From Bacteroides sp. 224 (GTDB lineage Bacteria; Bacteroidota; Bacteroidia; Bacteroidales; Bacteroidaceae), in assembly GCF_010500995.1 (NCBI RefSeq), contig NZ_QVMK01000034.1, forward strand, positions 18,179 to 82,178: 64,000 bases of DNA, read 5' to 3'. This document shows positions 35,201-39,003 of the stretch, in pieces (within the stretch, counting starts at the first letter, position 1; each line of letters opens with the position of its first letter). The position numbers and the translations under genes are program-made. The notes below the pieces were generated by a model. It was not told where the DNA came from and did not search any database. It was given only the letters and a program-made list of their open reading frames with translations.

Positions 35201-36130
35201 ATGGGAAGCGAAGGACTCATAGAAAAATACATTAACCCCTATACCGATTTCGGGTTTAAAAAGCTGTTTGGAACCGAACTTAACAAGGATTTGTTAATCA
35301 GTTTTCTGAATTCGTTGTTGCCCGACGGACAGGTTATTAAAGATGTAACCTACCTCAATGCCGAGCAACTTGGTACATTGGAAGCCGACCGACGCGCCGT
35401 ATTCGACGTTTATTGCGAAAACGAACAGGGGGAGAAGTTCTTGGTAGAGATGCAAAAAGGCGAACAACAATTCTTTAAAGACCGTAGCATATTTTACACC
35501 ACATTCCCCATTCGCGAACAAGCTATGAAAGGCAGAAGTTGGAATTATGAGTTGAAAGCAGTGTACACTGTTGGTATACTTAACTTCGCATTCGATAATA
35601 AAAACAACGATTACTTTCACCACGAAGTAAAGTTGGTAGATATGGGCTCTCAGGAAGTGTTCTATGATAAACTAACACTCATTTACCTGGAAATGCCCAA
35701 GTTCAACAAAACAGAACATGAGTTGGAAAACATGTTCGACAAATGGATGTTTGTACTCCGCAACCTCTCCAGATTGATGGAACGTCCGGCTGCCTTGCAA
35801 GAACGCATATTTACCCGCCTGTTCGAAGCGGCCGAAATAGCTCGCTTCAACCGCCAGGAGTTGGTAGAGTACGAAGACAGTTTGAAGAATTTTCGCGATT
35901 GGTACAGTGTAATGGAAACATCGCTGAATAAAGGACGAGCGGAAGGATTGGCGGAAGGAATTGAGAAGGGCTTGGCGGAAGGGCTTGAAAAGGGCTTGGC
36001 AGAAGGGCTTGAAAAGGGACGAACAGAAGGCGTTCTTGAAGTTGCCCGCAAAATGAAATCCAATTCAATTCCTTTACAAACAATTCAAGAACTAACAGGA
36101 TTATCTTTGGGGGAAATAGAAAAGTTATAA
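35201..36130 (+). CDS. Rpn family recombination-promoting nuclease/putative transposase, copy 1 (PD-(D/E)XK)
   Basis: A 309-residue protein. It starts MGSEGLIEKYINPYTDFGFK, the usual opening of Bacteroides PD-(D/E)XK nuclease family transposases. The nuclease motif has D69 (VFDVY) and E83-x-Q85 (LVEMQK). A helical middle leads to a C-terminal tract of GLAEGLEK-type octads (residues about 245-275), typical of Rpn proteins. At DNA level a 24-nt unit occurs twice in tandem at 35968-36015. The ATG at 35201 is shared by all copies; a longer start would cross the promoter. Rpn proteins promote RecA-independent recombination in E. coli; activity here is untested. A near-identical copy begins 12 nt downstream. 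Confidence 0.87.
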   Translation: MGSEGLIEKYINPYTDFGFKKLFGTELNKDLLISFLNSLLPDGQVIKDVTYLNAEQLGTLEADRRAVFDVYCENEQGEKFLVEMQKGEQQFFKDRSIFYTTFPIREQAMKGRSWNYELKAVYTVGILNFAFDNKNNDYFHHEVKLVDMGSQEVFYDKLTLIYLEMPKFNKTEHELENMFDKWMFVLRNLSRLMERPAALQERIFTRLFEAAEIARFNRQELVEYEDSLKNFRDWYSVMETSLNKGRAEGLAEGIEKGLAEGLEKGLAEGLEKGRTEGVLEVARKMKSNSIPLQTIQELTGLSLGEIEKL

Positions 36131-36142
36131 TAAACTAAAGTC

Positions 36143-37048
36143 ATGGGAAGCGAAGGACTCATAGAAAAATACATTAATCCCTATACCGATTTCGGGTTTA
36201 AAAAGCTGTTTGGAACCGAACTTAACAAGGATTTGTTAATCAGTTTCCTGAATTCGTTGTTGCCCGACGGACAGGTTATTAAGGATGTAACCTATCTCAA
36301 TGCCGAGCAACTTGGTACATTGGAAGCCGACCGACGCGCCGTATTCGACGTTTATTGCGAAAACGAACAGGGAGAGAAGTTCTTGGTAGAGATGCAAAAA
36401 GGAGAACAGCAGTTCTTTAAAGATCGTAGCATATTTTACACCACATTCCCCATTCGCGAACAAGCTATGAAAGGCAGAAGTTGGAATTATGAGTTGAAAG
36501 CTGTATACACTGTTGGCATACTTAACTTCGCATTCGACAATAAAAACAACGATTATTTTCACCACGAAGTAAAGTTGGTAGATATGGGCTCTCAGGAAGT
36601 GTTCTATGATAAACTAACACTCATTTACCTGGAAATGCCCAAGTTCAACAAAACAGAACATGAGTTGGAAAATATGTTCGACAAATGGATGTTTGTACTC
36701 CGCAACCTCTCCAGATTGATGGAACGACCGGCTGCCTTGCAAGAACGCATATTTACTCGCCTGTTCGAAGCGGCCGAAATAGCTCGCTTCAACCGCCAGG
36801 AGTTGGTAGAGTACGAAGATAGTTTGAAGAATTTCCGCGATTGGTACAGTGTAATGGAAACATCGCTGAATAAAGGACGAGCGGAAGGATTGGCGGAAGG
36901 AATTGAGAAAGGCTTGGCAGAAGGGCTTGAAAAGGGACGAACAGAAGGCGTTCTTGAAGTTGCCCGCAAAATGAAATCCAATTCAATTCCATTACAAACA
37001 ATTCAAGAACTAACAGGATTATCTTTTGGGGAAATAGAAAAGTTATAA
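36143..37048 (+). CDS. Rpn family recombination-promoting nuclease/putative transposase, copy 2
   Basis: A 301-residue near-twin of the preceding gene. By eye the two proteins are the same apart from one missing C-terminal octad (GLAEGLEK) and an S-L-G-E to S-F-G-E change near the end; most DNA differences are silent. The catalytic D69, E83 and Q85 are kept. The AAACTAAAGTC sequence just before the start is also repeated, so the duplicated unit includes the leader. The 3' end of copy 1 contains TATCTTTG (36099-36106), a -7-like match that could serve this gene. Recent tandem duplication is the simplest reading. Confidence 0.87.
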   Translation: MGSEGLIEKYINPYTDFGFKKLFGTELNKDLLISFLNSLLPDGQVIKDVTYLNAEQLGTLEADRRAVFDVYCENEQGEKFLVEMQKGEQQFFKDRSIFYTTFPIREQAMKGRSWNYELKAVYTVGILNFAFDNKNNDYFHHEVKLVDMGSQEVFYDKLTLIYLEMPKFNKTEHELENMFDKWMFVLRNLSRLMERPAALQERIFTRLFEAAEIARFNRQELVEYEDSLKNFRDWYSVMETSLNKGRAEGLAEGIEKGLAEGLEKGRTEGVLEVARKMKSNSIPLQTIQELTGLSFGEIEKL

Positions 37049-37060
37049 TAAACTAAAGTC

Positions 37061-37117
37061 ATGGGAGGCGAAGACTCATAGAAAAACACATTAACCCCTA
37101 TACCGATTTCGGGTTTA
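37061..37117 (+). pseudogene. 5' fragment of a third Rpn-type gene
   Basis: After the same AAACTAAAGTC leader, an ATG at 37061 starts a sequence matching the first 58 nt of the other copies, with one base lost (GAAGGACTC to GAAGACTC), causing a stop at codon 7. The match ends abruptly at GGGTTTA (37111-37117), where unrelated coding sequence begins. Confidence 0.8.
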
Positions 37118-37486
37118 GAATGGGAATATGCAGCTCGCGGAGGAAACAAAAGCCAAGGATATAAATACAGCGGTAGTCACAGTGTCTCTAATGTTGGTTG
37201 GTATACAGATAATAGCAACAACACTACTCACGCCGTAGGCACCAAAAGCCCGAACGAATTGGGTATTTATGATATGAGTGGAAATGTATGGGAATGGTGT
37301 GCCGACTGGTATGGTGCTTACAGTAGCAATGCACAAACTAATCCTAAAGGTTCTGATACAAGTGATTTCCGGGTGAATCGCGGCGGTAGCTGGTACTACG
37401 ATGCGAAGTATTGTCGTGTTTCGTTTCGCGACCTCAACACTCCCAACTCTCACTACTACGACCTGGGCTTTCGCTTGGCCCTTTAG
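37118..37486 (+). pseudogene. Fragment of a formylglycine-generating-enzyme-like (SUMF1/FGE-sulfatase) domain protein
   Basis: An open frame of 122 codons without a start codon. It begins exactly at EWEYAARGG, normally preceded by LPTEA in this family, and goes on with ELGIYDMSGNVWEWCADWY, RVNRGGSWYYDAKYCRVSFR and ends YYDLGFRLAL, the standard C-terminus of the domain. So it is the C-terminal half of an FGE-like gene joined to an Rpn 5' end at 37117/37118. The N-terminal half is absent from the window. Expression from an internal start (for example at 37259) cannot be excluded but is unlikely to give an active protein. Confidence 0.82.
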
Positions 37487-37585
37487 GTTACTATTAGGCA
37501 TCCCTCTCTGTTCTAAGTTAAACCATGAGTTGTGTAAAGGGCGAGCGAGGAAAGAGCGAAGACAAGAACAAAACGAATATTAATA

Positions 37586-37650
37586 AATTCAATTCCTTTA
37601 CAAACAACTCAAGAACTAACAGGATTATCTTTGGAGGAGATAGAAAAGCT
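37586..37650 (+). pseudogene. 3' fragment of an Rpn-type gene
   Basis: Matches the end of the two intact Rpn genes (AATTCAATTCCTTTACAAAC ... ATCTTTGGAGGAGATAGAAAAG, reading NSIPLQT.QELTGLSLEEIEKL). Together with the 5' fragment at 37061 it brackets the FGE-like segment. The stretch 37651-37830 shows no recognisable gene. Confidence 0.75.
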
Positions 37651-37840
37651 AATTATGCGCACCACTTTTACCCTAATCAAACTTCGACAATTGGATACTT
37701 AGCAAGGAAAATCCTCCTGGACTTACCGCAGGTTTCCCTAAGACTTGCTAGTAGTATGCCTTAGACAATCTTGTGGTAAATCCAGAAGTAAATTGCAATC
37801 ATAAAAGCAGAGAAAATGTGTTCTATATAAACTATTACTA

Positions 37841-37877: not shown

Positions 37878-38852
37878 ATGAAAGATATCTTCACCCGCCG
37901 TTTTTGGAAATACTTTATTATTACCTTCTTTCTAGTACTCATCCTCAGTGCTTTGGGAGTTGGCAACCGTTATATAGATTTGTTTATAGCTAACTCCACA
38001 CCATTTAAAACACTTGCTAAACTATGCGCATGTATAGCTCTGGGAATAATTCCCGCAGCATTGTGCATTTCCACAGCATTGGCTACATTCATATCCTTTA
38101 GAAATCTGCCGGCAAACATAAAGGCAATAGGTATTTTTAGGAAGTTTGGTATTGGATTGTTGTGTTTCTTTCCTTTGGCTGCCGCTATTTATTGGTTTGA
38201 TCTCGACATTCAGCCCCGCTTTCAAACAGATGCAATGAAGATACTTTGGGAAGTTAAAAATGGCCGTCCTTTTCTTGCGGTAGACGACAAACCCTTAGAA
38301 TACCCCGATTTCAAAAACCACATTCTAAAACTATGCACTAAAAACGATCTGTATTTTCGCTTGGATTCACTCAAAAATCAATGTGGCGAATTGAGAGAAG
38401 AATGCAGCAAACTACTTATTCAACTGCCCGACACTGCTGCCAACAAAGCCTACGAGGCTTATCAACTCAAATGGTTGGGTGTAGACTACCAACATGCGCC
38501 ATCCCCTGTAACGATAAGCAAGGATAGTGTAATTCACATTCAACAATATGAACTATTCGACACTTCCGAGCAGCTATACAAAAGTAAGATTGAACATCTA
38601 TTGCATACATCCGAGTACTACAAACGAATGTTGAATGCAATGGTATTATTATTGGAATTTCTAATCTTTTCCATCTTGGGCTATCTATCCCGAAAGAAAA
38701 CGATAAAGAATATTCTGGGTATACTTGCCATTATCATAATGGCAGGGCTATTTGTTCGCTCAGTAACAAACCTTGGAGAACACTATGCAGAAACAGCACG
38801 CATAGGAATGAAGGCATACAAAAGAGATATAATCCATCAGGAGTTTAAATAG
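37878..38852 (+). CDS. Membrane protein, possibly a divergent LptF/LptG-like permease
   Basis: A 324-residue protein. Three membrane segments (about residues 11-29, 48-72 and 89-107) are followed by an extracytoplasmic domain of about 145 residues (108-250) and two or three more segments (252-270, 276-294). This 3 + domain + 2-3 layout, a basic loop after segment 2 and the ending SILGYLSRKKTIKNILGILA...NLGEHYAETARIG recall LptF/LptG permeases of the lipopolysaccharide exporter. The match is one of topology and weak pattern only. It is not next to other lpt genes and lies in accessory DNA, so it would not be the housekeeping copy. Otherwise it is a hypothetical membrane protein. An upstream extension to 37773 is rejected because it crosses the promoter. 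Confidence 0.6.
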   Translation: MKDIFTRRFWKYFIITFFLVLILSALGVGNRYIDLFIANSTPFKTLAKLCACIALGIIPAALCISTALATFISFRNLPANIKAIGIFRKFGIGLLCFFPLAAAIYWFDLDIQPRFQTDAMKILWEVKNGRPFLAVDDKPLEYPDFKNHILKLCTKNDLYFRLDSLKNQCGELREECSKLLIQLPDTAANKAYEAYQLKWLGVDYQHAPSPVTISKDSVIHIQQYELFDTSEQLYKSKIEHLLHTSEYYKRMLNAMVLLLEFLIFSILGYLSRKKTIKNILGILAIIIMAGLFVRSVTNLGEHYAETARIGMKAYKRDIIHQEFK

Positions 38853-38973: not shown

Positions 38974-39003
38974 TATCTTTGGGAAGAAATAGAAAAGTTA
39001 TAG
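38974..39003 (+). pseudogene. Short relic of an Rpn 3' end, containing a -7-like sequence
   Basis: CTATCTTTGGGAAGAAATAGAAAAGTTATAG matches the last codons of the Rpn genes (LSLG.EIEKL, stop) with an extra base. It includes TATCTTTG (38974-38981), a TAnnTTTG match 45 nt before the GNAT gene start, so it may now work as that gene's promoter. The DNA from 38853 to 38973 shows nothing else. Confidence 0.5.

Follow-up and report, generated by a model that had tools for sequence, protein, structure and literature searches.

A probable chimeric pseudogene of Rpn gene ends and half an FGE domain in a tandem Rpn array of Bacteroides sp. 224

The present analysis concerns a locus in the genome of Bacteroides sp. 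224 (4,421,676 bases in 129 contigs) at which the two ends of an Rpn gene frame the C-terminal half of an FGE/SUMF1 domain. It lies in a stretch of 64,000 nucleotides on contig C57, hereafter the window. The chimera is real, and we consider it probable (roughly 0.8) that it is a pseudogene that illegitimate recombination generated within a tandem Rpn array, using FGE DNA. The array carried a third Rpn copy, the middle of which has been lost, with the 3′ half of an FGE gene of the type associated with diversity-generating retroelements (DGRs), plus about 100 nt, taking its place. Most likely this came about through one or two illegitimate events of end joining or template switching in which homology played little or no part, and the FGE source, from a fast-changing and often multicopy family, would either have been lost from the genome since or never have been resident and have arrived by transfer. 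That the product has no function is suggested by its stop at codon 7, the missing N-terminal half of the FGE domain, the altered Rpn stop codon and its absence from relatives.

Structure of the array and the chimera

Two intact Rpn genes precede the chimera (Table 1), each matching PF12784 in full (E about 4e-76). They differ at 22 of 906 aligned nucleotides, and copy 1 exceeds copy 2 by 24 nt in a repeat region near the C-terminus. The third unit begins with a segment that aligns to the start of copy 1 with one G lost and two substitutions, a third mismatch in this alignment being counted as the first FGE base. The earlier note had described Rpn ends framing an FGE segment that begins at the motif EWEYAARGG, and both the alignment and the PF03781 match (E 1.8e-29) confirm this. 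Translation runs from that motif to GFRLAL over 122 open codons with no inner stop, and the FGE gene's own stop followed by 99 nt agrees with the description of a natural domain end plus about 100 nt. The one-base deletion does place the FGE part in frame with the third Rpn ATG (57 nt, or 19 codons), with codon 7 of that unit reading TAG. At the left junction about one base (A) is common to Rpn and typical FGE DNA. On the right, about 17 nt of the intervening segment next to the Rpn tail may be gapped Rpn sequence, and the tail itself is identical to copy 1 at 62 of 66 positions and to copy 2 at 60 of 66, with the stop changed so that it reads AAG CTA ATT ATG.

Table 1. Features of the Rpn array, the chimera and the neighbouring genes (window coordinates)
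Feature	Position	Strand	Basis or remark
Rpn copy 1	35201..36130	+	intact frame, PF12784 (PD-(D/E)XK nuclease family transposase)
Rpn copy 2	36143..37048	+	intact frame, PF12784
Array spacer, 12 nt, ahead of third ATG	37049..37060	+	same as spacing between copies 1 and 2
Rpn start, first 58 nt minus one G	37061..37117	+	alignment to copy 1; stop at codon 7
FGE/SUMF1 C-terminal half, EWEYAARGG to own stop	37118..37486	+	PF03781 positions 117-254
Variable-region-like 3′ end of FGE half	37370..37486	+	template comparison with relatives
99 nt between FGE stop and Rpn tail, without assignable homology	37487..37585	+	
Rpn end, last 66 coding nt	37586..37651	+	stop codon altered
LptF/LptG-like gene, separating both Rpn remnants, outside the chimera	37878..38852	+	
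Rpn tail remnant, final ~28 nt of the gene	38974..39002	+	

The chimera retains just 58 nt of the Rpn start and 66 coding nt of its end and contains no PD-(D/E)XK domain in an open frame, and of the complete PF03781 domain (positions 1–255) it carries the C-terminal part only; no FGE N-terminal half was found in the three frames of about 700 nt upstream. Two unrelated families are thus joined inside codons in an interrupted frame, as expected of the illegitimate recombination product that had been proposed from the sequence. The chimera is older than the full copies or is decaying faster, because its Rpn ends have diverged more from copy 1 (2 substitutions and a one-base deletion over the 58-nt start, 4 changes over the 66-nt tail) than copies 1 and 2 have from each other in these segments (1 and 2 differences). 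A hint against the preferred explanation comes from the FGE part, which is open over 122 codons although the 124 nt of Rpn ends have accumulated 6 substitutions and a deletion; this may reflect arrival of the FGE DNA after decay of the third copy had begun, or constraint on it.

If the Rpn-like ends were a general repeat they should occur apart from Rpn genes, but a DNA search of the whole genome (E ≤ 0.001, 5 matches) placed them in Rpn genes only, and the FGE part matched only 61 nt of the genome's single other FGE gene. To the original account we add a second remnant, the end of an Rpn gene downstream of the LptF/LptG-like gene, which scored 28 against a maximum of 22 among 300 shuffles and had an E value of 0.002 in a whole-genome search in which the next unrelated match had 0.17. 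It adjoins a short AATAAACTA stretch, the likeness of which to the array spacer was judged by eye.

Nature and source of the FGE half

The FGE piece is the variable half of a DGR-type protein, as indicated by a bias of changes toward AAY codons, by the entropy of its end among relatives and by published targets with FGE-sulfatase domains. Four of 138 locus records (L032–L169) contain RT genes like this genome's two DGR-like RTs, and in three of the four the FGE end is repeated close to the RT (no such repeat was found in L040), with mismatches mostly at A bases (31 of 41, 15 of 18 and 24 of 32). Four further short FGE ends from other genomes all had an adjacent RT gene. Compared with templates of relatives, the FGE end in the window has a changed residue at 10 of 12 AAY codons versus 6 of 26 others (L097; Fisher p 0.001), at 11 of 13 versus 5 of 25 (L111; p 0.0003) and at 5 of 5 versus 15 of 33 (L098). 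Among 62 distinct FGE ends of equal length, drawn from 54 of 80 loci, mean entropy was 3.2 bits where the L111 template has N and 1.2 bits elsewhere. By comparison with these templates from relatives, the window piece has its variable residues at template AAY codons. In one paper (PMC4159848), FGE-sulfatase domain proteins are listed as DGR targets.

No cognate template with its RT was found in this genome, the two DGR-like units of which carry other templates, and no second copy of positions 37360–37500 rose above noise (best other E 3.5). One of these units lies on the same contig as the window (L028, C57:1757–5467) and has an adenine-rich template-like region, an RT with GLPIGNLTSQ and an ORF that we take to resemble an Avd accessory gene; it adjoins a broken Rpn gene of a second subfamily (family-B). 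The other (L027, C52:52873–56466) consists of a target-like ORF, an AAC-rich repeat of its end and a 441-aa RT. Origin of the whole insert through a DGR, as cDNA of an adenine-mutated transcript, was rejected, the changes in the Rpn ends not being confined to A.

A donor FGE gene, which the earlier note had suggested seeking elsewhere in the genome, was not found in the 4.42-Mb assembly; the PF03781 family is present at two places, the window half and one different full gene. The search was no more successful among relatives at the DNA level (best 73% over 194 nt, in G005, with the best 5 candidates per genome scored), in 80 contig loci (best protein identity 70%), among 295 genomes of the order (best 70% outside this genome), in viral contigs (best 63%) or in plasmids and phages (best 60.3% and 48.9%). 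When a 675-nt chimera query was compared with 100 genomes, own included, and the best 5 candidates per genome were scored, 30 genomes had a match. Outside the own genome all matches listed fell in the FGE part, with the exception of a 44-nt match to the tail region (G039), where no Rpn gene was seen. Among the same best 5 candidates per genome, Rpn ends joined to FGE were absent from all 99 related genomes, which again fits an illegitimate recombination product, and a conserved expressed small gene was rejected, as no conserved copy was found. There were 2 promoter-like sites at the chimera (shuffle mean 1.7) and 2 terminator-like sites (shuffle mean 0.7, sd 0.8), one of the latter being at the 3′ end of FGE. 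Literature titles and the openings of abstracts describe no such chimera.

Rpn genes, solitary FGE halves and alternative explanations

Rpn genes are unstable in this genome, as seen in the tandem copies, the 24-nt repeat change, the tail remnant and a 60-aa deleted copy. The latter, on contig C54 (L173 1472–1654), is an in-frame mini-Rpn made up of the start, 34 middle residues and an Rpn-like end (PF12784 E 1.2e-6). When its peptide was compared with 119 genomes, the matches listed elsewhere were partial, lay in open frames of at least 114 aa and included no counterpart of similar size, leaving the idea that Rpn is a conserved-end element yielding small derivatives unsupported. Zhong et al. 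(PMC10327210) describe Rpn as toxin-antitoxin phage defence, not as conventional transposases, and attribute the arrays to tandem duplication, with variation through repeats of four residues. Family-B is present in several dispersed copies, many pairs of which share DNA from about 50–100 nt upstream of the ATG to roughly the stop (exceptions being pairs with L012 and the pair L015–L016). Several family-B copies (flanks of L014, L016 and L020) have beside them a repeat of roughly 150 nt whose inverted arms are rich in GCGGAA.

The earlier note suggested that the chimera may be a footprint of Rpn activity. On this view Rpn would have made a double-strand cut in its own gene and repair would have captured FGE DNA, but this is improbable. 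Two intact Rpn genes do adjoin the chimera, and partial Rpn copies are present in other genomes, for example in G030 (L238), where Rpn pieces of 292 and 153 aa lie side by side, the second N-truncated. Kingston et al. (PMC5350276) report that E. coli Rpn has nuclease activity and increases recombination independent of RecA, so that a contribution of Rpn to the joining is possible, and they propose template-switch joining and mention microhomology-mediated assembly. Nothing at this locus points to Rpn, however. None of 251 FGE locus records (1,495,046 bases in all, with some overlap or near-identity among the records and short flanks in many) contains an Rpn gene detectable with a profile built on the Rpn proteins of this genome, which might overlook distant ones; the same profile matched 44 ORFs in Rpn loci. 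A survey of other Rpn loci for captured gene pieces, also suggested by the earlier note, found stray Rpn ends beside a gene in this array only, out of 36 full Rpn rows for which the flanks were included (34 distinct genes, L008 and L011 showing the same two; 8 partial rows, including L238, were left out). One other pair among the full rows was a tandem of full genes, and an Rpn gene with captured FGE DNA was a single case in the whole survey. A non-specific nuclease would, moreover, be expected to show no preference for its own gene. Finally, such halves can be accounted for without Rpn, because in other genomes similar solitary FGE halves, with almost the same first codon, adjoin sequence of other kinds: a leader peptide, an antisense open frame and a piece of an amidase gene.

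Of these, a Prevotellaceae MAG (L063) has a leader peptide joined to an FGE half at EAEWEY, and a spirochaete MAG (L129) has a half starting from LPTEAEWEY beside an antisense open frame without Pfam match. In G190 (L354 2431–3586) the beginning of a duplicated amidase gene is replaced by an oppositely oriented half starting from WEAAARGG, the duplicate having 59% identity to the intact amidase alongside. No FGE N-terminal half was found in any frame within about 700 nt upstream in these three. Two other candidates (L119 and L079) were rejected as frameshifts. On a 210-position FGE model the starts were 84 (L063), 85 (L129), 92 or 91 (L354) and 91 (window), so that all three lie within about 7 codons of the window's position. 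This counts against our preferred explanation, because plain random breakage does not predict such near-coincidence.

An alternative explanation that gives the active role to the FGE 3′ half, with DGR-type C-terminal halves recurrently breaking near EWEYAARGG and moving into unrelated genes, draws on these four starts beside non-FGE sequence but is quite unlikely. There are only three cases besides the window, no common partner-side junction sequence was noticed by eye, and the search query itself began at EWEY. Other fragment starts were spread: among the matches listed in a full-domain survey of 22 chosen genomes they fell at 45 (L362, an internal piece), 103 (L359) and 128 (L358), the one start at 91 being the G190 half already known, while a fragment starting at 93 (L357) sits at a contig end. 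Given this spread, the near-coincidence of four may be chance. Little probability likewise attaches to the broader form, covering Bacteroidales and a spirochaete, in which FGE halves would be repeatedly excised at EWEYAARGG give or take about 7 codons and pasted by an FGE/DGR-linked, Rpn-independent process, the window being one landing; the start at 45 lowers it. In one locus (L359 1–770, G275) a leucine-rich repeat gene piece continues into an FGE fragment slightly beyond the EWEY motif.

Wider scans covered the domain as a whole. In 300 locus records there were 356 FGE chains, 225 full, 17 at an edge and 114 incomplete, and those starting at 26–83 were read as a phage subfamily (26–27), a divergent subfamily (42–55) with 235 or more open residues upstream, and one split match (L111). 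Of the matches listed for 295 genomes, those in open frames shorter than 200 aa comprised the window half, the G190 half and two at contig starts. A motif scan of all loci, blind to the G190 half because its motif differs, gave 213 normal contexts and 2 others, one of which (L340) was read as normal. Lastly, an assembly artefact from misjoining of contigs at the tandem Rpn repeat is very unlikely. The number of contigs (129) and the 62 N in another Rpn locus speak for it; against it, the chimera's Rpn ends show differences that neither full copy has, and Rpn and FGE have about one base in common at the left junction.

Significance and comparison with known systems

The chimera is best regarded as a clear fossil of illegitimate recombination and as a caution against inferring Rpn activity from one locus. 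If the common FGE breakpoint holds in a larger survey, it could reflect an unrecognised way in which hypervariable domains move between genes.

The ends of the chimera and its two upstream neighbours belong to the Rpn (PDDEXK_2, PF12784) nucleases, with tandem arrays and variation in repeat number like those described in PMC10327210. Unlike these nucleases, the chimera has neither a nuclease domain nor an open Rpn frame. Compared with DGR variable proteins containing an FGE-sulfatase domain, the window piece has the same C-terminal variable-region form as the L097 and L111 targets; unlike them it is half a domain without its own start codon context, and no template or matching RT unit was found for it in the genome. 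Chimeric pseudogenes formed by illegitimate recombination are a general kind, and the window shares with them the joining of unrelated pieces, an interrupted frame and occurrence in a single genome. It differs from that general kind in that its left FGE breakpoint nearly coincides with those of three other solitary halves.
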